From Pigmentiphaga sp. NML080357 (GTDB lineage: Bacteria; Pseudomonadota; Gammaproteobacteria; Burkholderiales; Burkholderiaceae_B), in assembly GCF_002188465.1 (NCBI RefSeq), contig NZ_NINW01000017.1, positions 1 to 55,876 of the forward strand: a stretch of DNA of 55,876 bases, given 5' to 3'. A program made the position numbers and the translations under genes. The notes under the pieces are model-generated. The model was not told where the DNA came from, searched no databases, and worked only from the letters and a program-made list of their open reading frames with translations. This document shows, one piece after another, positions 37,081 to 49,160 of the stretch. Each line of letters opens with the position of its first letter. The stretch's first letter is position 1.

Positions 37081-37404
37081 ATGAAGAACACTCCTGACCT
37101 GCTTTTCACGACCCTTGCCGACCCGACCCGGCGGGCCATTTTCGAACGCCTGTGCCGCGACGGGGAACAAACCGTCGCCGCCCTGACGGCGCAAGCCGGT
37201 GTCTCGCAGCCGGCCGTCTCCAAGCACCTCAGGATGCTGAAACGGGCCGGCCTCGTGCTCGATCGGCACGAGGGACGCCAGACGCACTACAGCGCCCAAC
37301 GCCGTTCGCTGATTCCTCTGGTCGACTGGACCACCCGGATGGCCGGGTTCTGGGAAAGCCGGTTCGACAACCTTGAAGACCTGCTCAAACGGATGGACCA
37401 ATGA
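37081..37404 (+). CDS. ArsR-family regulator (SRPBCC-linked type)
   Basis: 107 residues. LLFTTLADPTRRAIFERLCR, TVAALTAQAGVSQPAVSKHL and RMLKRAGLVLDRHEGRQTHY form the winged helix. It is the non-metal ArsR type typically coupled to an AHSA1/SRPBCC gene, which follows here with a four-base overlap. The gene is intact and has two operators at its promoter, although the genes it used to control are damaged. Confidence 0.9.
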   Translation: MKNTPDLLFTTLADPTRRAIFERLCRDGEQTVAALTAQAGVSQPAVSKHLRMLKRAGLVLDRHEGRQTHYSAQRRSLIPLVDWTTRMAGFWESRFDNLEDLLKRMDQ

Positions 37405-37730
37405 CTGATACGCCGGCCGAGACGCGCACCGTCGTCGTCGAACGCGAGTTTCCCCACCCTCCGGAAAAAATCTGGCGCGCGCTCACCCAGCCGCACCTGA
37501 TCGAGCCAGACAAGGCGCTGTCCTATACATGGAACTTCAGCCACGACGATACGGCATTCGACCTGAGGAGCGTCGTGACCTTCACGCTCACGCCCACGCG
37601 CGCAGGGACCCTGCTGCGCATGGAGCAATCCGGCTTCCGACCGGACCAGAAACAAGCTTACGGCGGCGCCAAGCTCGGATGGCCGCAATTCTTCGGCAAG
37701 CTGGAACAACTCTTGGCGCGAACGGCTTGA
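37401..37730 (+). pseudogene. SRPBCC/AHSA1-domain protein with an internal in-frame deletion
   Basis: 109 residues instead of about 145. The N-terminal VVVEREFPHPPEKIWRALTQ and PHLIE are normal. The text then jumps to PDKALSYTWNFSHDDTAFDL, RSVVTFTLTPTRAGTLLRME and SGFRPDQKQAYGGAKLGWPQ. The segment between, normally about 35-40 residues (EEWL... through the 'gd..G.v..ev' strands), is missing at about 37503-37506. Three beta strands of the helix-grip fold are lost, so the product is unlikely to fold. The frame is preserved. It overlaps the arsR stop. Confidence 0.78.
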
Positions 37731-39314: not shown

Positions 39315-39725
39315 ATGCGTCAAGCCAGCAGCGCCACCATATCCTCCACCGACACCAACTACCTGCATCGCATCCACGTCGGGGCATTCGACCTGGACAC
39401 CGACGAGCCGAGGACTCTGGGCGGCCAGGGTGCCGCCCCGGCCCCATTCGACTACTACCTGGCGTCCCTGTCGGCCTGCACCGCCATCACGCTGCGCATG
39501 TATGCGCAGCGCAAGGGCTGGAGCCTGGGCGAATTCCGCGCCGAGCTGACGTTGAGCTTCGACGACCAGGGCACGGCGCACATCCACCGCAAGCTGTATT
39601 CGGACCAGCCGCTGACCAGCGAGCAGTGGAACCGGCTGCTGGAGATCGCTGCCAAGACACCAGTCACCAAGGTCATGAGCAATGGCGCGGTAATCACCAG
39701 CGAAGCCGTCGCGGCGGACACGTAG
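39315..39725 (+). CDS. OsmC-family protein lacking the second cysteine
   Basis: 136 residues. PAPFDYYLASLSACTAITLR contains the first OsmC/Ohr cysteine (C55). The second family motif, normally CPV, reads KTPVTKVM here, with Thr in place of Cys. Without that residue the usual two-Cys peroxidase cycle cannot run, so it is either a one-Cys variant of the YhfA-like group or a binding protein. The 210 bases before it (39105-39314) hold no gene. Confidence 0.8.
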   Translation: MRQASSATISSTDTNYLHRIHVGAFDLDTDEPRTLGGQGAAPAPFDYYLASLSACTAITLRMYAQRKGWSLGEFRAELTLSFDDQGTAHIHRKLYSDQPLTSEQWNRLLEIAAKTPVTKVMSNGAVITSEAVAADT

Positions 39726-39784: not shown

Positions 39785-41140
39785 TCAATCGAACTGGCCC
39801 TGCGTCTCGGGCGAAACTTTCGCGCCCACGAGGTAGACCGCCGCCAGCAAGGCCGAAGTGACAGCCAGGACATGGGGAATGTCCTGCGGCGAGCCGCTCA
39901 TCAGCGAGACCACGGTAGGCATCATGCCGCCGATGGCGAATCCGATGTTCCATGACAACCCCGTGCCGCTGGCGCGCATCTTGGCCGGGAAGCGCTCGTT
40001 CAGGAAGATCATGACCGGCGCGATGATGGCCCCTCCCAGCAGGGCGATGGCCGAGGCGATGACCGTGATCTGCGGCAGGGACGCGGGCCTGGCGATGAGC
40101 ATGAAAAGGTACGGCAGCAACACCAGGCAGAAAACCCCCAGCGCGTAGAACGTCTTCTTCCGACCGATCACGTCGCTCAGGGCGCCGAATGCCAGCGCGC
40201 CGACGATCGTTCCCACCGAGCTGATCATCAGGATGAGCGCCGAACTCTCGTGCGGCACGTTCGCGACCAGTTTCAGCAGCGTCGGAAGATAGCCCGCGGT
40301 GATGTAGTAGGTGGCGCCGCCGCCGAAGGTGATGAGCAGGTTGATCAACAGGACGTTCCGGTACTCGCCCGCGAACAACGTCTTGAGCGGAGAGGCCTGC
40401 CTGGCCGCGCCGTCTTTCTGCTTCGCCCTTTCGGCCTGGATCTTCTTGAAGGAAGGCGTCTCGTCGAGCAGCCGATACATCACCAGGCCGAACACGGTAC
40501 TGATCAGGCCGGAGAAGAACATGACACGCCAGCCGATCTGGTCGAACCGGTCGCCGGGGAACACATGGGACAGCGCAAAGTACACGATGGAGGCCATCAA
40601 AGCTCCCATGCCCGCACCGCCGCTTCCCACCAGCCCCGACATCAGGCCGCGATGGCGCGGCGCGATCGACTCCGTGCCGATCGTATGCGTCGAGGCCACG
40701 ATGCCGCCCACGAACAACCCCTGCACGATGCGCAGCACCAGGAAGATGATGGGAGCGATCAGCCCGGCCTGGTGAATGGTCGGCAGCAAGCCGAACGCCG
40801 CCGTGCTCAGGCCTACGCCCACCATCGAGATCATCAGCGCCCGCTTGCGGCCATGCTTGTCCGCATAGGCACCGAACACGGCCGACCCGAGGGGCCGCAC
40901 CAGCAGCGCCACGGCGAACGAAGCGTAGACCGCCGCGAGCGACAGAGTCGGCTTGTCCGAGGGAAAGAACAGGCGGCCGATGATGGGCGCCACATACAGC
41001 AGAATGAACAGATCGAACAGGTCCAGCGCCCACCCGAAGGTCGATGCAACACCTGCCAGGAAAGCCTTGCGCGATTGCGCGGGGTCGGCCGCGGACTCGC
41101 GCGAGCCCGCGCCGCTGACCGTGTCAGTGGTGGAATTCAT
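39785..41140 (-). CDS. MFS transporter of the metabolite:H+ symporter family
   Basis: 451 residues, twelve membrane segments. FGWALDLFDLFILLYVAPII with the acidic pair in helix 1, RPLGSAVFGAYADKHGRKRA and LRIVQGLFVGGIVASTHTIG are typical of organic-acid/H+ symporters (ShiA, NanT, PcaK-like). It is the last gene of the molybdenum hydroxylase operon, 98 bases after the crotonase gene, and so very likely imports the acid degraded by it. Confidence 0.87.
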   Translation of the reverse strand: MNSTTDTVSGAGSRESAADPAQSRKAFLAGVASTFGWALDLFDLFILLYVAPIIGRLFFPSDKPTLSLAAVYASFAVALLVRPLGSAVFGAYADKHGRKRALMISMVGVGLSTAAFGLLPTIHQAGLIAPIIFLVLRIVQGLFVGGIVASTHTIGTESIAPRHRGLMSGLVGSGGAGMGALMASIVYFALSHVFPGDRFDQIGWRVMFFSGLISTVFGLVMYRLLDETPSFKKIQAERAKQKDGAARQASPLKTLFAGEYRNVLLINLLITFGGGATYYITAGYLPTLLKLVANVPHESSALILMISSVGTIVGALAFGALSDVIGRKKTFYALGVFCLVLLPYLFMLIARPASLPQITVIASAIALLGGAIIAPVMIFLNERFPAKMRASGTGLSWNIGFAIGGMMPTVVSLMSGSPQDIPHVLAVTSALLAAVYLVGAKVSPETQGQFD

Positions 41141-41238
41141 GATGTCTCCTTTGTTTGAACGAGGACTGGGGGCGCCCTGTCGCCCGGCTGGCGACTCCGG
41201 TCGTCAGCCTGCCCTGCGAGCGAACCGGCGGTGCCGGC

Positions 41239-42045
41239 TCAGCGCCCCAACCACTGCGGCTTGCGCTTGGCGTGAAACGCTTCCACACCCTCGCGGAAAT
41301 CCTCGGAGCTGCGCAGGCGGCTGTAGCAATGGCCCTCGAGTTCGATGGCGATCGACAGCGGCGAATCTTCGGTGTCGTTGAGGAGTTTCTTGACCGTACG
41401 CTGCGCAAGCGGCGAAAACTCCCGCAGCTCGTCCACGAGCTTGTCGGTGGCGGCCTCGAGCTGGTCGTCCGGCACGCATTCGACGACGAAACCCCAGTCA
41501 TAGGCCTGCTGGCCCGAAACCCGGCGGGATCGCATGACGACGTCCTTGGTGCGCGCAATGCCGATCATGCTTTGCAGCCGCGCCGAGCCGCCCGATCCGG
41601 GTATCTGTCCCAGCTTCTGCTCGGGCAGCGCATACTGTGCCGTGACACTGGCGATACGAAAGTCGCAGGCGAGCGAGATCTCGAATCCCACGCCGAAGCA
41701 ATATCCTCGGTTGGCGGCGATCACGGGCTTGGTGCAGCGCGCCGGCGCGGCGACGTTCCAGGCCAGCTTGGATACGTGCTCGGGCGAGGCTTCCAGGAAA
41801 CCGCGGATGTCACCGCCGCTGGAAAAGTGCTCGCCCTCGGCGCGCAACACGATCACCCGTACGCGCGGATCCTCGTCCAGCGCCTCGAACACCAGGCGCA
41901 GCTGTTCCCGTTGCAGCATGGAAATGATGTTGAAGGGCGGCCGCTTCAGGACGATATCGGCGCGCTCGCGCCCGGCGTCGACGATGACTTCGAAGCCGTC
42001 GAGTCGTTCAAGCAGGGTCTGGGCCGGATGGTTGAGATTGGGCAT
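41239..42045 (-). CDS. Enoyl-CoA hydratase/isomerase (crotonase) family protein
   Basis: 268 residues. The first oxyanion motif is in EHFSSGGDIRGF, the second in RGYCFGVGFEISLACDF, and the acid loop in ALPEQKLGQIPGSGGSARL with a glutamate in the place of hydratase Glu164. The second motif has FGVG instead of the usual GGG, a small deviation. It acts on a CoA thioester, presumably made by the ligase encoded 67 bases upstream: hydration, ring opening or dehalogenation are all family options. Confidence 0.85.
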   Translation of the reverse strand: MPNLNHPAQTLLERLDGFEVIVDAGRERADIVLKRPPFNIISMLQREQLRLVFEALDEDPRVRVIVLRAEGEHFSSGGDIRGFLEASPEHVSKLAWNVAAPARCTKPVIAANRGYCFGVGFEISLACDFRIASVTAQYALPEQKLGQIPGSGGSARLQSMIGIARTKDVVMRSRRVSGQQAYDWGFVVECVPDDQLEAATDKLVDELREFSPLAQRTVKKLLNDTEDSPLSIAIELEGHCYSRLRSSEDFREGVEAFHAKRKPQWLGR

Positions 42046-42112
42046 GGGAATTTCCTTGTTTGGGTCGTAGACAAGACTTCGATACGGGGAATGCGGGCGG
42101 CGTCCTTTCCGG

Positions 42113-43657
42113 TCAGTGCGGTTCGGGCTCCACGCCCGGATCCGGCTCGAACTCGCCGGCGGTCAGCTTGCGGCGCAGGATCTTCCCCACCGGCGACTTG
42201 GGAATCTCACTGACGAAGACGTACTCGCGCGGGCGCTTGAAATTCGCGAGGTCCGTGCCCCGGCAGTAGGCGTCCAGCTCGTCGCCATCCACGGCGTTCT
42301 TGCGCTTGATGAACGCGACGACACGCTGGCCCCAGCGTTCGTCCTGCAGGCCGGCGACGGCGACCTCGTCCACGCCGGGATGCAGCGACAGCACGGACTC
42401 GATGTCGACCGGCGAGATGTTCTCGCCGCCGCTGATGATCATGTCGTCGACCCGTCCGGTGACGTGCAGCTCGCCATCCTCGTCCAGGTATCCGGTATCG
42501 CCGGTGAAGTACCAGCCGTTGCGCAGCGACTTGGCGTTGGCGTCTGGCCGGTTCCAATAGCCTTCGAACGCCTCGTCTCCGGCCAGGTCGGCGATGATCT
42601 GGCCCTCCGTTCCGCGCGGCGCCAGGTCGTCGGGGTCGGTCGTTTCCAGCCGCACCAGGCGCAGGCGCGTATTGATGCCCGCGCGCCCCGCGCTGCCGGG
42701 CTTGCGGCGGGCATCGGGATTGATGGCCATGGTGTAGACCTCGGAACTGCCGTAGTGATTGACGAACAGCTCCGGCCGGAATGCCTCGTCCAGGCGCAGC
42801 AGCAGCGCATCATGCATGGGAGCTCCGGCGAAGCCGAGCTTGCGGACGCTGGAAATGTCGGTGCGCGCGAAATCCTCGTGCGCCAGCAGGTCGTGGTAGA
42901 GCGTCGGCACCAGGTACAGGTTGCTGACACGCTCACGCTCAATCAGCTGGAGCGCCGTCGCGGCGGAAAAGCGCGGCAGGCAGACGAAGCATCCGTCCAC
43001 CAGCGCCATGGCCAGCAATGACCGCACCCCCATGGTGTGATAGAGCGGCATCACGCCCAACGTGCGCTCGCCGATCCCGTACTGATTCTGCGCCACGTGC
43101 CCCAGCGCGGCGGCCCGCTCCTGCCGGTGCCTGCGCGGCACGCCCTTGGGCTTGCCGGTGGTCCCGGACGTATAGAGCATCAGCGATACATCGTCCGCTC
43201 CCGCCGACGGCCCGGCGGTCCAGGGGCTTGCGGCAAGCAATTGCGCATACTCGTGCGTCGCGCGCGCGTCCGATCCCACCACGATGCGCGGGACGTGCGC
43301 GGCTCCCGCCGCATGCGCCACGGCGTCCCCGCTGGCTTCTTCATAGACGATCGCCTTCGCCGCGGAATCTGCCAGGCAATAGTCGACCTCTTCGGGCTTG
43401 GCGCGCCAGTTCAAGGGCGTGACGATCACACCCAGGAACTGGCAGGCCCAATGCAGGGTGGCCATTTCCAGGCGGTTCTGCAACACCACCAGCAAGTGGT
43501 CGCCGTGCTTGAGTCCGAGGTCATCCAGCCCTTGCGCAACGCGCAGGACCTGCCCCAGCCACTCGGCATAGGTCAGGCGGGATTCGCCTTCCACGACCGC
43601 TATCGCGTTGGGATTGCGCTCCACGCTCTGCAAGAATGTACGTCCCAAATCCAGCAT
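42113..43657 (-). CDS. Acyl-/aryl-CoA ligase (AMP-binding, 4-chlorobenzoate-CoA-ligase-like)
   Basis: 514 residues. The P-loop is LMLYTSGTTGKPKGVPRRHR, the A5 motif VNHYGSSEVYT, A7/A8 YFTGDTGYLDEDGELHVTGR followed by VDDMIISGGENISPVDIE, and the catalytic Lys is in KSPVGKILRR. Size and text resemble aromatic-acid ligases such as 4-chlorobenzoate:CoA ligase. It activates a carboxylic acid to its CoA thioester. It lies 12 bases after the 2Fe-2S subunit gene, in the same operon. Confidence 0.86.
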   Translation of the reverse strand: MLDLGRTFLQSVERNPNAIAVVEGESRLTYAEWLGQVLRVAQGLDDLGLKHGDHLLVVLQNRLEMATLHWACQFLGVIVTPLNWRAKPEEVDYCLADSAAKAIVYEEASGDAVAHAAGAAHVPRIVVGSDARATHEYAQLLAASPWTAGPSAGADDVSLMLYTSGTTGKPKGVPRRHRQERAAALGHVAQNQYGIGERTLGVMPLYHTMGVRSLLAMALVDGCFVCLPRFSAATALQLIERERVSNLYLVPTLYHDLLAHEDFARTDISSVRKLGFAGAPMHDALLLRLDEAFRPELFVNHYGSSEVYTMAINPDARRKPGSAGRAGINTRLRLVRLETTDPDDLAPRGTEGQIIADLAGDEAFEGYWNRPDANAKSLRNGWYFTGDTGYLDEDGELHVTGRVDDMIISGGENISPVDIESVLSLHPGVDEVAVAGLQDERWGQRVVAFIKRKNAVDGDELDAYCRGTDLANFKRPREYVFVSEIPKSPVGKILRRKLTAGEFEPDPGVEPEPH

Positions 43658-43669
43658 CGAATGCCTCCT

Positions 43670-44191
43670 TCATGTGTTCTTGTTGCGCGCGGCGGCCACG
43701 TCCAGGACGGCCTGGACGATGGGCGTGTAGCCCGTGCACCGGCAAAGGTGCCCCGAGAGCATGTCGCGCACTTGTTGCTCGGTCGGCGCAGGCGCGCGCT
43801 CCAGGAAGTCCGCGCACGACATCAGGATCCCCGCCGTGCAGAAGCCGCATTGCAGCGCGTGGTGCCGCCGGAAGGCCTGCTGCAGGTCGCTCAGTTCGCC
43901 GTCGCGGGCCAACCCCTCCACCGTGTCGACCCTGCGGCCGTCCACCTGGACGGCCAGGGTCAGGCACGAGCGGCCGGCCACGCCGTCGATGCGCACGGTG
44001 CAGGCGCCGCATACTCCGTGCTCGCATCCCACGTGGGTGCCGGTCGCCCCCAGCTCGTGCCGCAGGAAATCGGACAACAGCGTGCGGCTTTCCGCCGCGC
44101 CCTCGCACGGCTTGCCATTCAGCGTGCAGCGGACGCGATGCGTCCTGCCGGCAGGCAGCGCTTGTCCGGCGGTCTTGCGTTCATCCTTCAT
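43670..44191 (-). CDS. 2Fe-2S subunit of a xanthine-dehydrogenase-family molybdenum hydroxylase (CoxS-type)
   Basis: 173 residues from the ATG at 44191. The plant-type 2Fe-2S cluster is ligated by C56, C61, C64 and C76 (HVGCEHGVCGACT). The second cluster uses C115, C118, C150 and C152 (QCGFCTAG and HLCRCTGYTP). It passes electrons from the Mo centre to FAD. It overlaps the FAD-subunit gene by 11 bases. The N-terminus is about 15 residues longer than usual. Confidence 0.93.
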   Translation of the reverse strand: MKDERKTAGQALPAGRTHRVRCTLNGKPCEGAAESRTLLSDFLRHELGATGTHVGCEHGVCGACTVRIDGVAGRSCLTLAVQVDGRRVDTVEGLARDGELSDLQQAFRRHHALQCGFCTAGILMSCADFLERAPAPTEQQVRDMLSGHLCRCTGYTPIVQAVLDVAAARNKNT

Positions 44192-45026
44192 TGCTTGCCC
44201 CTTGCGCCCGCGCCGCGGCAGTCGCGATTGCCCTGGCCGCCAGTTGCCGCACCAGCCGCCGGCGGTAGGCCGCGCTCGCGTGCGCATCGTCCTGAGCCCC
44301 CAGCGTCCACGCGAAATCATTGATGGCCGCTTCCAGCTCGTGCCGCGGCAGGCGTGGCCATTGCACGACGGCCGGCCGGTCGGCCACTCCGCCCACCCCC
44401 AGGCGTATGGCGTCCTGGCTGACCGCGGCCGCGCATGCGGCGATGGCGAAATCGCCGTGGCGCAGCGAAAATTCTTCGAATGCGTAGCCAGTCCCCGGAG
44501 CCCGCAGGGGATAGCGCACGCAGGCGATCAGTTCGTCGCCGGCGCGCGCCGTGGTAAGCATTCCCTGGAAGAAGTCCCGCGCGGACAGTGTCCTGCGGCC
44601 CCGCCTGGATGCCAGCACGACCTCGCCGTCCAGCAACGCCAGGCACAGCGGCAGCTCCGCGCTCGGGTCGGCATGCGCGACCGACCCGCAAACCGTGCCC
44701 CGGTTACGCACCTGGAAATGCGAGATATACGGAAACGCGCAAGCCAGCAGCGGCACCTCGTCGGCCAGTCCCGGTCGCCACTCCACGCTGGCCTGCGTGG
44801 CGGCAGCCCCCACTTCCAGCTTGCCGCCCACCACCTTCGCGTAGTCCAGCGGCTCGCAGCGCGAGACGTCCAGCAGCACCGACGGCTGCGCGAGACGCAT
44901 GTTCAGCACCGTGATGAGCGACTGTCCGCCCGCCAGCACGCGGGCCTCCTCGCCATGGCGCGCCAGCAGGTCGCAGGCCTGCGCCTCGTCCTCCAGCCGC
45001 ACGTAATCGAAAGCCGCCGGCTTCAT
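44181..45026 (-). CDS. FAD-binding subunit of molybdenum hydroxylase (CoxM-type)
   Basis: 281 residues from the ATG at 45026. ARVLAGGQSLITVLNMRLAQ is the first FAD loop, and VRNRGTVCGSVAHADPSAEL the second, followed by the C-terminal CO-dehydrogenase flavoprotein domain. It transfers electrons from the 2Fe-2S subunit to an acceptor. Its ATGA start overlaps the stop of the large-subunit fusion gene. Confidence 0.92.
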   Translation of the reverse strand: MKPAAFDYVRLEDEAQACDLLARHGEEARVLAGGQSLITVLNMRLAQPSVLLDVSRCEPLDYAKVVGGKLEVGAAATQASVEWRPGLADEVPLLACAFPYISHFQVRNRGTVCGSVAHADPSAELPLCLALLDGEVVLASRRGRRTLSARDFFQGMLTTARAGDELIACVRYPLRAPGTGYAFEEFSLRHGDFAIAACAAAVSQDAIRLGVGGVADRPAVVQWPRLPRHELEAAINDFAWTLGAQDDAHASAAYRRRLVRQLAARAIATAAARAQGASNEG

Positions 45027-48000
45027 GCCGCCCCCCTCCATCCCAGCAGCGCCAGCACCTTGCGCCACCAGCTTCGCGATGCGGCGGCCGGCGGTTGTCC
45101 GCTGGCCTGCCGGCCCAGTTGTTCGAACAATTGCGCGAGGACGATCTTGGCCGCCCCTTCCAGCATGCGGCTGCCCACCGCGGCGACCTTGCCGCTGACC
45201 TCGGCGCTGTAGTCGTAGCGCAGGCGCGTGCCGCCCTCGTGGGGCTCGAGCAGCACCTTCCCGCTGCCGCGCGCGCTGCCCAGCGACGAGCTCCCGGAAC
45301 CGGCCAGCCGCAAGGAACGCGGCGGATCGAGCTCCGACAGGGCGATCTCGGCCGCATAGCGGGCCTTGATCATGCCCACGCCCACCGTCACGTCGGCGCG
45401 ATACCGGTTCTCCCCTATCGCTTCCAACGAATGGCAGCCCGGCACCACCTTTGCAAGGGCTTCCGGATCCAGCAGCACGCCGAAGACCACTTCGGGCGCG
45501 GCCGCGATCTGCACGCTGCCCGCGGCGGACAAGGCCTTGCCCGAGCCGCTGCCCTGCGGCGCGACGCCCGCGGGCGGCGCGGATGCCACGTGCGGGCTTC
45601 CGCTGGGCGGCGGGTCGTCGAACCCGATCAGTTCCATGACCTTCAACGGGGTCAGGGGCAGGCGCACGTCGCACGCCCCACGGATCGGCGCCAGCGCGTC
45701 CGCGACGGCGTTGGCCACGCATACCGGCGTGCTCATGTTGTTGCCCTCGCCCAGTCCCTTGGCCCCCAGGGGCGTAAACGGCGACGGGGTTTCCAGATGC
45801 ACGATGACCGGGTCCGGCACCTCGCAGGAGGTCGGAACGAGATAGTCGGCGAACGTGCCGGACTGGAAGCTGCCATCGTTCGCGTAGCGGAACTCCTCCA
45901 TCAACGCGGCGCCCAGCCCCTGGGCGAAGGCCCCGCGGATCTGGCCGTCCGCCAGGGCGGGATTGAGCAGCTTGCCGGCGTCATGCGTGGTGACATAGCG
46001 GTCGATGCGCACGCGCCCCGTATCGCGGTCGATCTCGACCGCGCAGATGTCGAAGGCGAAGCCGTAGGCCGCGGAAGTGTTGACGCGATCCTGCTCGTCC
46101 GGGGCGGTCAATGGCTCCGGCGTCCAGAACTCGGTCACGCGCAAGCCCGGCGATTCCCCTTCCGGAAGTTGTCCCGGGGCCCAATGCGCGCTGCTCGCCG
46201 CGCGGCCGAACGACAGCATCTTCCCCGGCACGTCCGGCAATCCCACCTTGCCGCCGGCGAACACCACGTCGGCCGGATCGCAGGCCAGCTGGTGGGCCAC
46301 GATGCGCGCCACCTTGTCGCGCAGCCGGGTCGCCGCCAGGTGCACCGTTCCGGCCACCGCGCCCGCGAAGCGGCTGGAGTAGTTGCCCGCTGCCACCGAC
46401 CACGCATCCTTCTGCGTATCGAAGTCCACGTTCACCGTCACCTGTTCCGGCGCCAGGCCGAACACGTCCGCGACAACCTGCGCGCACACGGTCATGTGCC
46501 CCTGCCCCGCCGGGGAGGACGCGACGACCACCGACACGCCGCCCAGGGGATCGATGCCGACGGTGGCGCTGGCGATGGCGCCGTTCTTGGGGCCGGCCTT
46601 GGCGCGCTGCTCCGCCGTCAGGACCGTGCTGATGTAGCCCATGTTGGAAATGGACGGCTCCACAATCGCGGAAAAACCGATGCCGTACAGCCGGCCCTCG
46701 GCCCTGGCCGCGTCGCGCCGCCGCAGCAGTTCGTCCAGCCCGCCTTCGCGGGCGGCCATTTCCACGGCCAGCGGATAATTGCCGGAATCCAGCAAGGCGC
46801 CGGCGGCGGCCCGGTAAGGAAACGCCTCGGGCTGCACGAAATTGCGCCGGTACACCGCCAGCGGATCGAGGCCCAGCTCCTGCGCGATGCGCTGCACCAG
46901 GCGCTCCAGGGCGAAGTACACCTGGGGGCCGCCGAAACCGCGCACCAGGCCGGCCGGCGTGCGATTGGTCAGCACCACGCGGTTTCGTACCTTCAGGTGA
47001 GGAATTGCGTAGGCCCCCGTCAGGCAGCCGTGCATGCGATAGAACGTCGCGGGTTCGGGGGCGCGCAGATAGCCGCCCACGTCGTCGAACTGGTCGTACG
47101 ACAGCGCGCTGATCCGGCCCTCGCCATCCACCGCCGCTTCGATCGTGCACATGCGGGACGTGGCGGAGGTCGCCGCCACCAGGTGCTCCAGGCGGTCCTC
47201 CACCCACTTCACCGGCGCGCCCGCCTTGCGCGAGGCCAGGCACATGAGCACGACGTAGGGAAAGACGCTCTGCTTCACGCCGAAGCTTCCGCCCGAGTCC
47301 CTGGGCAGTTTGTGGCGCAGGCGCGTGCCGGGAATCTTCAGGGCCAGCGCCATCACGGAATGCAGCGAGAACGGCCCCATGAAGTTGGAACTGACCTCGT
47401 ACCCGTCCTCGCCGGGCAGATGCTCGGCGATCACCACCGCTCCCTCGATGGGCGTGCAGGAATTGCGCGGATAGTGGACGGTCAGCCGGACGCGGTGCTC
47501 GGCCGCCTCGAAGGCGGCGTCCGGCTCGCCGTAGCTGAAGCTGCGATCGCTGACGACATTGCTGCCCACCGCGGGATGCAGCACCGGCGCCCCCTCGGCG
47601 ATGGCCGCCTCGATCTCCACGGCAACGGGCAACGCCTCGTAATCGACCCGGATCAGCTCCAGCGCATCCTCGGCCACGTAGCGGTCCTCGGCCACCACCA
47701 CGGCCACGGGCTCGCCCACGTAGCGCACGCGGTCCTGCGCCAGCGACCAATGCTCCATGGGAGACTTCACACCCACGACGAAAGGCTGGGACCAGCGCTT
47801 CACGTCCGCGCCCGTCAGTACCGCCCGGACGCCCGGGAACGCTTCCGCGGCACTCGCATCGATGCCTAGCAACATCGCGTGAGCGTGGGGCGATCTGAGG
47901 ATGGCGGCATGCAGCGTGCCGGGCTTGACCGGCAGGTCGTCGCCATAGGCGCCGCGCCCCGAAAGCAGCGCCGCATCCTCGACACGCTCCAGCCGGCGCC

Positions 48001-48046
48001 CTACGAACGGCGCCCGGGCCGCGGACAGAACGCTCGCCTCGCTCAT
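45023..48046 (-). CDS. Molybdopterin-binding large subunit fused to a CoxG-like SRPBCC domain
   Basis: 1007 residues from the ATG at 48046, with GGAGG 6 bases upstream. Residues about 15-800 are a xanthine-oxidase-family large subunit: FVGRRLERVEDAALLSGRGA, DSGGSFGVK, LVRGFGGPQ at the Mo site, PAGQGHMTV, and GAKGLGEGNN with the catalytic Glu. The Mo loop is RGFGG, as in xanthine/aldehyde oxidases, not the AYRCSFR of CO dehydrogenase. A Pro/Ser/Gly linker (about 805-835) leads to a CoxG-like domain (about 836-983: VQIAAAPEVVFGVLLDPEAL and VVPGCHSLEAIGENRYRADV). A Trp-rich amphipathic end (SWWRKVLALLGWRG) follows. CoxG proteins recruit Mo hydroxylases to the membrane, so the fusion likely anchors the enzyme. 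It is first in the operon. Confidence 0.9.
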   Translation of the reverse strand: MSEASVLSAARAPFVGRRLERVEDAALLSGRGAYGDDLPVKPGTLHAAILRSPHAHAMLLGIDASAAEAFPGVRAVLTGADVKRWSQPFVVGVKSPMEHWSLAQDRVRYVGEPVAVVVAEDRYVAEDALELIRVDYEALPVAVEIEAAIAEGAPVLHPAVGSNVVSDRSFSYGEPDAAFEAAEHRVRLTVHYPRNSCTPIEGAVVIAEHLPGEDGYEVSSNFMGPFSLHSVMALALKIPGTRLRHKLPRDSGGSFGVKQSVFPYVVLMCLASRKAGAPVKWVEDRLEHLVAATSATSRMCTIEAAVDGEGRISALSYDQFDDVGGYLRAPEPATFYRMHGCLTGAYAIPHLKVRNRVVLTNRTPAGLVRGFGGPQVYFALERLVQRIAQELGLDPLAVYRRNFVQPEAFPYRAAAGALLDSGNYPLAVEMAAREGGLDELLRRRDAARAEGRLYGIGFSAIVEPSISNMGYISTVLTAEQRAKAGPKNGAIASATVGIDPLGGVSVVVASSPAGQGHMTVCAQVVADVFGLAPEQVTVNVDFDTQKDAWSVAAGNYSSRFAGAVAGTVHLAATRLRDKVARIVAHQLACDPADVVFAGGKVGLPDVPGKMLSFGRAASSAHWAPGQLPEGESPGLRVTEFWTPEPLTAPDEQDRVNTSAAYGFAFDICAVEIDRDTGRVRIDRYVTTHDAGKLLNPALADGQIRGAFAQGLGAALMEEFRYANDGSFQSGTFADYLVPTSCEVPDPVIVHLETPSPFTPLGAKGLGEGNNMSTPVCVANAVADALAPIRGACDVRLPLTPLKVMELIGFDDPPPSGSPHVASAPPAGVAPQGSGSGKALSAAGSVQIAAAPEVVFGVLLDPEALAKVVPGCHSLEAIGENRYRADVTVGVGMIKARYAAEIALSELDPPRSLRLAGSGSSSLGSARGSGKVLLEPHEGGTRLRYDYSAEVSGKVAAVGSRMLEGAAKIVLAQLFEQLGRQASGQPPAAASRSWWRKVLALLGWRGAA

Positions 48047-48079
48047 CGCCCCCCTCCTGCTGGAGCGCAAGCGCCGTGC

Positions 48080-48100
48080 CTTGCGGGCATCACACGCAAG
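48080..48100. promoter_or_regulatory. Inverted repeat in the leader of the Mo-hydroxylase operon
   Basis: CTTGCG (48080-48085) and CGCAAG (48095-48100) form a dyad 34 bases before the large-subunit start; a third CGCAAG-like copy lies at 48066-48071. It may be an activator site or an RNA hairpin. The remaining bases of 48047-48293 show nothing further. Confidence 0.35.
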
Positions 48101-48293
48101 CATCGCATTTGTCTTCCTCCTGTTCCCGGCATGCCGCCTGAGGCGGTCTGCGCGAGGCGTTCAAGCCTCAAAAAAGAATGGGGAGAAAGATAAGCGGCGT
48201 GCTGCCCGCAGCCGTTACCGCTGCATCGGGCGACTTACCGTAGAGTCTGATTTTTCAGTTTCTTGACGGAAAAACGGCGCAAAGGACTGCCTG

Positions 48294-49160
48294 TCAGCGC
48301 CTGTCCTGGCCGGCATCGAACAGGTCCACCACCCGGCGATATTCCGTAGGCGTGGTTCCCAGGTGCTCGCGGAAGAAACGGGTGAAATGCCCCGGGGCGG
48401 AGAAACCCACGTCGTACGCGACGTCGGCGATGGGTGTATCGCCCGCGGTCAGCGCGGCGATGGCCGCCTCCATGCGCAGCACGTTGGCATACACGCGGGG
48501 GGTCAGCTTGGTCGTCTTCCGGAAAAGCTCGAAGAAATGCGCCCGCGACAGGCCGCACTCCGATGCGAGCACGTCCATGTCCAGCGGCTGCGCAAGGTTT
48601 TCCTTCATGCGGGTGATGGCCTTGCGGATCCGCACGTCGCCGTGATGCTGCCGCAGGCTGCCCATCAGCGACTGATAGCTGCGCCACTCGGAATGATGCT
48701 CGATGGTGGCGATCATGAGCTCGAAAAGACGCTCCTCCAGCTGGCTCGCGGGCAGTTCCGTCATCAGCAGCATGTCGCGGGCGAGCGCATCCGCCAGTTT
48801 GCGTGCCGCGGGAGAAAGCGCGACGCAGGGTTGCTGGAAAAAATGCGGATGCGCGCTGACCGTCAACGCCTGCTGGATGCCGGCCAGCCAACTGGGTTCG
48901 ATATACAGCGCCAGGATGACCGTGCGTTTCACTTCCGCGCCGTTGTGCGTGTAGGAATGCGGCTCCCAGGCGTTGACCAGCACGGCGCTGTCGTCCGTGA
49001 GCGGCTGCGGCCGGCCGCGCACCGAAAAATACGTGTCCGCGCCGAACGCCTTGATCAGGACGTGGCAATGGTGATGCGCATGCGACACCAGGAGCATGTT
49101 CATGTCGAGCAAGGCGACGCGCCCGAACTTTCCCTGCAGGATCCTGATTGCAGCTGACAT
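48294..49160 (-). CDS. AraC-family regulator, probable activator of the Mo-hydroxylase operon
   Basis: 288 residues. A cupin-type N-terminal sensor domain (about 15-110: HHHCHVLIKAFGADTYF, AVLVNAWEPHSYTH) is followed by two helix-turn-helix motifs (about 180-280: MDVLASECGLSRAHFFELFR and IADVAYDVGFSAPGHFTRFF). It is transcribed in the same direction as the operon, whose first gene begins 247 bases downstream. It probably senses the pathway acid. Confidence 0.88.
   Translation of the reverse strand: MSAAIRILQGKFGRVALLDMNMLLVSHAHHHCHVLIKAFGADTYFSVRGRPQPLTDDSAVLVNAWEPHSYTHNGAEVKRTVILALYIEPSWLAGIQQALTVSAHPHFFQQPCVALSPAARKLADALARDMLLMTELPASQLEERLFELMIATIEHHSEWRSYQSLMGSLRQHHGDVRIRKAITRMKENLAQPLDMDVLASECGLSRAHFFELFRKTTKLTPRVYANVLRMEAAIAALTAGDTPIADVAYDVGFSAPGHFTRFFREHLGTTPTEYRRVVDLFDAGQDRR

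Follow-up and report, generated by a model that had tools for sequence, protein, structure and literature searches.

Pigmentiphaga sp. NML080357 carries a seven-gene operon that very probably encodes hmf-type catabolism of 2-furoate, comprising hmfABCDE, an AraC-family regulator and a carrier of the major facilitator superfamily (MFS). Its molybdenum (Mo) large subunit, HmfA, bears a CoxG domain fused to its C-terminus. The operon lies on contig NZ_NINW01000017.1, whose 55,876-nucleotide sequence is hereafter called the window. 2-Furoic acid is a breakdown product of furfural, itself derived from plant sugar. The operon is known biology from other genera, and the fusion is widespread and unremarked in the openly licensed literature searched. 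There, no paper was found linking hmfA with CoxG, and papers mentioning CoxG, SRPBCC and fusion together appear, from their titles and opening abstract lines, to deal with other matters. In PMC6678421, which describes the hmf pathway, the term "coxg" is absent and no CoxG domain of HmfA is mentioned.

Gene content and identity of the operon

An open reading frame (ORF) check of the window confirmed seven genes at 39785-49160, all on the minus strand (Table 1), where the initial annotation had placed them. Family searches support the flavin adenine dinucleotide (FAD), 2Fe-2S, adenosine monophosphate (AMP)-ligase, crotonase, MFS and AraC labels, as that annotation had proposed for the partners of HmfA; the 2Fe-2S query had ten extra N-terminal residues, and the result was unchanged. 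What had been called an acid symporter holds as a member of the MFS family, with the symporter label subfamily-like (TIGR00883, 251 bits against a cut-off of 443). No NCBIfam match among those listed reaches its cut-off for any of the seven proteins (for the ligase, crotonase and AraC protein, among the best 25 matches). The enzymes follow the order A-B-C-D-E on one strand. hmfB and hmfC overlap by 11 bases if hmfC begins at MKDERK, and the next spacers measure 12 bases (hmfC to hmfD), 67 (hmfD to hmfE) and 98 (hmfE to the MFS gene).

Residues 29-744 of HmfA correspond to the three domains of a xanthine-dehydrogenase Mo subunit (Ald_Xan_dh_C at 29-140, MoCoBD_1 at 157-403 and MoCoBD_2 at 434-744 in Pfam). 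At the Mo site, an alignment of 27 sequences, that of the window included, shows no variation at R369, G370, G372 and G373 and almost none at F371. The active-site loop of carbon monoxide (CO) dehydrogenase is AYRCSFR. This motif is absent from the 1007-residue HmfA, and scores against CoxL models fall far below their cut-offs (TIGR02416, 411 bits against 991; NF040766, 458 bits against 950), which excludes CO dehydrogenase, as the initial annotation had argued from RGFGG. Also rejected were 4-hydroxybenzoyl-coenzyme A (CoA) reductase (TIGR03194, 348 bits against 994.55) and xanthine dehydrogenase, both scoring far below cut-off.

The gene set is that of a described pathway, in which HmfD forms 2-furoyl-CoA and Mo-dependent HmfABC oxidizes it; HmfE is the proposed 2-oxoglutaryl-CoA thioesterase, and the hydrolysis preceding it has no assigned gene (PMC6678421; this and the other papers are cited from excerpts). 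The Pseudomonas pseudoalcaligenes locus also holds an MFS gene, an AraC gene required for growth on furfural and an osmC neighbor (PMC6678421), and the gene table of Pseudomonas umsongensis GO16 lists hmfA-E with araC as the lower-pathway regulator (PMC12064950). The initial annotation had suggested a pathway hydroxylating an aromatic or heterocyclic acid, or its CoA ester, at the membrane, and had named an already described pathway of identical gene content as grounds for refuting it. The hmfABCDE route of 2-furoate degradation is such a pathway; what stands, very probably, is that a heteroaromatic acid is hydroxylated as its CoA ester. The distant likeness to 4-hydroxybenzoyl-CoA reductase could still hint at a similar reductase, or at an aryl-CoA hydroxylase of a new pathway. 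Given how far 348 bits falls short, and the match of the gene set to a described route (PMC6678421), we regard this as highly improbable.

The assignment draws on gene families, probable orthology and conserved gene order, with the reactions taken from the literature; 2-furoate is the predicted substrate in this strain. HmfA to HmfE of the window are 93, 92, 86, 90 and 93% identical to those of Pigmentiphaga kullae and 75, 67, 72, 68 and 79% identical to those of Cupriavidus pinatubonensis. We compared three beta-proteobacterial loci (C. pinatubonensis, C. laharis and 'Burkholderiaceae bacterium 16') with three Pseudomonas/Stutzerimonas loci as stop-to-stop frames. The nine cross-pairs gave identities of 61-64% for HmfA, 51-60% for HmfB, 67-77% for HmfC, 59-62% for HmfD and 68-79% for HmfE. 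The corresponding published values, between C. basilensis HMF14 and P. pseudoalcaligenes, are 64, 59, 77, 61 and 80% (PMC6678421). HmfA and HmfD agree closely with the published figures, and HmfC agrees in some pairs.

Gene order is conserved well beyond these loci. Context was counted in those 69 of the best 80 genome-contig relatives whose sequence extends 4.5 kb or more downstream, considering same-strand genes within 10.5 kb of hmfA. hmfB and hmfC are present in all 69, and strong hmfD and hmfE matches in 61 (all except L045, L075, L080, L082, L085, L088, L096 and L103), so the association of hmfA, hmfD and hmfE is not due to chance. AraC matches occur on the same strand in 44 of the 69 and MFS matches in 22. 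The A-B-C-D-E order is kept in 61 of 62 genome-contig loci with strong hmfD and hmfE; in the exception, L038, hmfE lies upstream. Among loci drawn from the genome search, the order count includes the window's own gene twice (L004, L008).

Several points weigh against the 2-furoate assignment. Across the nine pairs, HmfB mostly falls below the published 59% and HmfE always slightly below the published 80%. The operon was identified indirectly, through relatives, gene order and percentages from the literature. Finally, L045 has a strong hmfD and no hmfE match. Families alone leave the substrate unfixed, all listed NCBIfam matches lie under cut-off, and in a related fused clade the ligase differs and hmfE finds no match (see below); the same genes might thus serve another five-membered heteroaromatic acid, such as thiophene-2-carboxylate or pyrrole-2-carboxylate, instead of or besides furoate. 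We consider this unlikely, as each of the five enzymes has apparent orthologs, in the same order, in loci from genera with published furoate growth, and HmfE yields 2-oxoglutarate, the product of the furoate route (PMC6678421).

For the favored 2-furoate pathway, we propose that furoate would enter through the MFS carrier and be converted by HmfD to 2-furoyl-CoA. HmfABC, with its Mo, 2Fe-2S and FAD cofactors, would then hydroxylate the furan ring. The hydroxylated product would open to 2-oxoglutaryl-CoA, from which HmfE would release 2-oxoglutarate, and the AraC regulator would control the operon.

In both Dinoroseobacter and Geobacillus the operon has UbiD decarboxylase genes beside it, which fits a furandicarboxylate-to-furoate step. 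The Pigmentiphaga operon contig has no match to UbiD (hmfF-type). Two UbiD proteins are encoded on other contigs of the genome (G000:C57:83239-84582 and G000:C45:46448-47848) and share 55 and 59% identity with the UbiD adjoining hmf in Dinoroseobacter; furandicarboxylate use by the strain is possible. Stretches L133 and L134 cover the unlinked UbiD and XdhC genes.

The CoxG domain of HmfA

Profile, model and structure matches show that the CoxG domain on HmfA is real and has the CoxG fold, in line with the CoxL-CoxG fusion first proposed. PF06240 (COXG) matches residues 843-981 with an E-value of 2.9e-26 and 92.3 bits against a cut-off of 22.2. A model of the C-terminal domain (172 residues, 46 sequences) reached a predicted local distance difference test score (pLDDT) of 89.5, and Foldseek ranked 2pcs, 2ns9_A, 2ns9_B and 8uds first to fourth against it. 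Sequence search also recovered 2PCS, 2NS9 and 8UDS. 2NS9 is titled 'Pfam COXG', and 8UDS is Mycobacterium smegmatis CoxG 'minus lipid anchoring C-terminus'. In the full-length model (27 sequences, pLDDT 80.1), the Pro/Ser linker that had been noted between the core and this domain is evident in the sequence and modeled with low confidence.

Table 1. Features of the operon, of HmfA and of the sister clade. Coordinates refer to the window unless a locus is named.
Feature	Position	Strand	Basis
AraC-family regulator	48294..49160	-	family search; 247 bases upstream of hmfA, same strand
hmfA, furoyl-CoA dehydrogenase Mo large subunit with fused CoxG domain (putative), 1007 residues	45023..48046	-	family searches, relatives, tree
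hmfB, FAD subunit, 281 residues	44181..45026	-	family search; 4-base overlap with hmfA
hmfC, 2Fe-2S subunit, 173 residues, start at the ATG of MKDERK	43670..44191	-	family search
hmfD, AMP-forming acyl-CoA ligase (putative 2-furoyl-CoA synthetase), 514 residues	42113..43657	-	family search, identities to relatives
hmfE, crotonase-fold protein (putative 2-oxoglutaryl-CoA hydrolase), 268 residues	41239..42045	-	family search, identities to relatives
MFS carrier, metabolite/H+ symporter type, putative furoate uptake	39785..41140	-	family searches
RGFGG Mo-site loop, HmfA residues 369-373	46928..46942	-	motif search, alignment
Pro/Ser/Ala-rich linker, HmfA residues 811-836	45539..45616	-	full-length model, pLDDT <50
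CoxG (SRPBCC) domain, HmfA residues 843-981	45104..45520	-	Pfam, model, structure matches
Short cationic Trp-containing C-terminal helix, HmfA residues 993-1000, low confidence	45047..45070	-	full-length model
Sister-clade fused Mo large subunits	L082:7971-10943; L096:7974-10940		tree, context scan

Distribution and history of the fusion

The initial annotation had pointed to other fusions, and to the same operon with a separate coxG, as checks on its proposal, and both forms were found. Among the best 80 of at least 588 relatives in genome contigs, the CoxG domain is fused in 78; of the other two, L104 stops at a contig end within the linker and L108 lacks the domain. Fusion is therefore the usual form among the relatives found, not an oddity. 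About 75 relatives have a named lineage among the rows listed for the HmfA-core tree, all of them Pseudomonadota, and the closest named relative among the matches listed is P. kullae (93%). HmfA matches at E ≤ 1e-180 occur in 7 of 398 sampled genomes of the phylum, this genome included. Matches of 66-100% identity occur in 12 of 61 genomes (this one and 60 relatives); the remaining matches listed there are other Mo enzymes, 31-39% identical.

Unfused relatives occur outside this group. Geobacillus kaustophilus plasmid pHTA426 encodes hmfA, a separate coxG, then hmfB, hmfC, hmfD and hmfE, with a UbiD decarboxylase upstream; its hmfA, B, C, D and E homologues are 49, 41, 55, 52 and 52% identical to those of the window. 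The product of this coxG (L028:14418-14876) is the protein of PDB 2PCS, identical at 151 of 152 residues and differing at the first; this structural-genomics entry, filed as 'conserved protein', thereby gains an operon context. In Priestia megaterium NCT-2, hmfA is shortened, and coxG was not found at the locus. At three haloarchaeal plasmid loci (L113, L121 and L122) the hmfA-like gene is unfused and accompanied by two AMP ligases, and in two of the three a CoxG-family gene lies about 6 kb from the hmfA-like gene. These haloarchaeal clusters also include a BenE transporter and a PaaI thioesterase, and none of the genes annotated there encodes a crotonase.

We built trees of the HmfA core and of the CoxG domain. 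The HmfA-core tree (57 rows: 43 of 85 fused cores, 5 split and 9 without CoxG) sets the fused rows and L108 apart from the split Bacillota and haloarchaeal rows with support of 92/80, short of the program's support mark; residue composition was flagged as odd for 4 of the 5 split rows, and several branches are long. This tree omits L001, L003, L004, L009, L019, L048, L058, L090, L094, L099, L103 and L104, as well as L025, all rows scoring below 330 and some additional fused rows removed manually. The CoxG-domain tree comprises 25 of the 46 rows of alignment A4, 3 separate hmf-type CoxG and 7 other CoxG, 5 of them from this genome (L007 gave no input match at E ≤ 1e-5). It does not settle a single origin of the fused domains, which fall on one side in 33% of 200 bootstrap trees, and 10 of its 32 inner branches carry the support mark. 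The simplest reading would be a single fusion in the proteobacterial line, with loss in L108.

Nine CoxG-fused rows (L065, L075, L080, L082, L085, L087, L088, L089 and L096) form a sister clade with support of 100/98 in the HmfA-core tree, and L108 is sister to these nine (100/99). In none of the six sister-clade loci that extend at least 4.5 kb downstream (L075, L080, L082, L085, L088 and L096) was a strong hmfD or a same-strand hmfE match found; L075 has a weak crotonase match of 95 bits on the opposite strand. Weak ligase matches of 113-188 bits lie nearby in seven of the nine loci, and the ligases examined (one in L096, one of two in L082) fall in the benzoate-CoA ligase family, with 578 and 379 bits against 375. 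The lack of an hmfE match, together with such ligase neighbors, suggests that this clade probably acts on a different acyl-CoA substrate.

A second, distant CoxL-CoxG fusion occurs in genome G034 of the same family (L132:1698-5006). Its 1103-residue ORF has COXG at 917-1052, and is 32% identical to HmfA residues 14-980; beside it lie genes for an FAD subunit, for an alpha/beta hydrolase and for a TctC-type binding protein.

Within the window, an OsmC-family gene adjoins the operon at 39315-39725 on the plus strand, as it does in P. kullae; that the P. pseudoalcaligenes operon has the same neighbor may be coincidence. Behind an ArsR-type gene (37081-37404) lies a 109-residue ORF (37401-37730) whose AHSA1 match begins only at profile position 56, the N-terminal half of the usual domain being seemingly missing or diverged.

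Proposed role of the CoxG domain and known systems

CoxG is described as a menaquinone-binding membrane protein that passes electrons from CO dehydrogenase to the respiratory chain (PMC13240472, citing Kropp 2025), and Sulfolobus CoxG homologues bring glycerol-3-phosphate dehydrogenase to the membrane (PMC11962113). By analogy, we lean toward a membrane or quinone role for the CoxG domain of HmfA. Electrons would pass within HmfABC from Mo to 2Fe-2S to FAD, and the domain would tie the enzyme to the membrane, carry quinone to the FAD subunit, or both. Furoyl-CoA oxidation would thereby feed the quinone pool and the respiratory chain. Membrane binding and quinone as the acceptor are both extrapolated from CO dehydrogenase CoxG.

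The C-terminal tail bears on this proposal. Among 76 fused relatives, its net charge is at least +2 in 70, Trp occurs in 41 and Trp or Phe in 67. The initial annotation had described a Trp-rich amphipathic end: Trp and positive charge are present, and amphipathicity is weakly supported. The window's own tail has a hydrophobic moment of 0.61; the shuffle test covered the 76 relatives, not the window.

Other observations speak against a membrane or quinone role. Within the final 18 residues, the hydrophobic moment exceeds that of shuffles at p<0.05 in just 10 of the 76 relatives and not in the other 66, which include the closest, P. kullae (p 0.33). The Sulfolobus dehydrogenase reduces quinones without CoxG, and its authors conclude that CoxG serves anchoring, not electron transfer (PMC11962113). 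At L108:8001-10400, in a metagenome assembly, hmfA stops before the CoxG domain and runs directly into hmfB; no CoxG was found in the 13 kb of this locus examined, 2.7 kb of it downstream. This truncation is possibly a natural deletion; the domain may be dispensable, or its gene may lie elsewhere. L108 groups with the sister clade.

The domain could instead be an assembly or maturation module, acting in Mo-cofactor insertion or subunit docking with no membrane or quinone role. XdhC-type proteins, a maturation-factor family, are encoded by some neighboring genes, and both the CoxG-independent quinone reduction in Sulfolobus (PMC11962113) and the domainless L108 would suit such a role. Set against it are the best fold matches, which are CoxG-family proteins including one titled for its missing lipid anchor (8UDS), and the cationic tail of 70 of the 76 fused proteins. 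We judge maturation the less probable role, though one with a real claim, and continue to favor membrane or quinone contact.

More tentatively, the tethered CoxG of the proteobacterial furoyl-CoA dehydrogenase might act as a quinone extractor, reaching into the membrane to fetch ubiquinone and hand it to the FAD subunit, and the sister clade might use the same architecture on other acyl-CoA, possibly aryl-CoA, esters. If so, a soluble Mo hydroxylase would become a self-contained gateway into the respiratory chain. As a lead, the built-in CoxG is modest but open to testing. It makes the electron hand-off of furoyl-CoA dehydrogenase directly testable and connects a described furan-degradation enzyme with the recently reported CoxG quinone mechanism. 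It could also matter for engineering strains to use furfural or hydroxymethylfurfural, where an HmfA truncated or tagged at its C-terminus might fail.

The operon and its fusion can be placed among known systems. The window shares its five enzymes with hmfABCDE of C. basilensis HMF14 and P. pseudoalcaligenes CECT 5344, and AraC, MFS and the osmC neighbor with the latter; it differs in lying in Pigmentiphaga, on a contig without hmfF-type UbiD. The pHTA426 operon has the same five homologues in the same order, but there coxG stands as a gene of its own between hmfA and hmfB, whereas the window fuses CoxG to HmfA. Like HmfABC, the Mo-Cu CO dehydrogenase CoxLMS combines three cofactor subunits with a CoxG partner; unlike CoxLMS, HmfA has RGFGG in place of the CO-dehydrogenase loop, and its CoxG is fused rather than separate. 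Finally, the glycerol-3-phosphate dehydrogenase of Sulfolobus acidocaldarius resembles the proposed HmfA as a soluble dehydrogenase anchored by a CoxG homologue (PMC11962113), although that enzyme is unrelated to HmfABC and its anchor is a separate protein.

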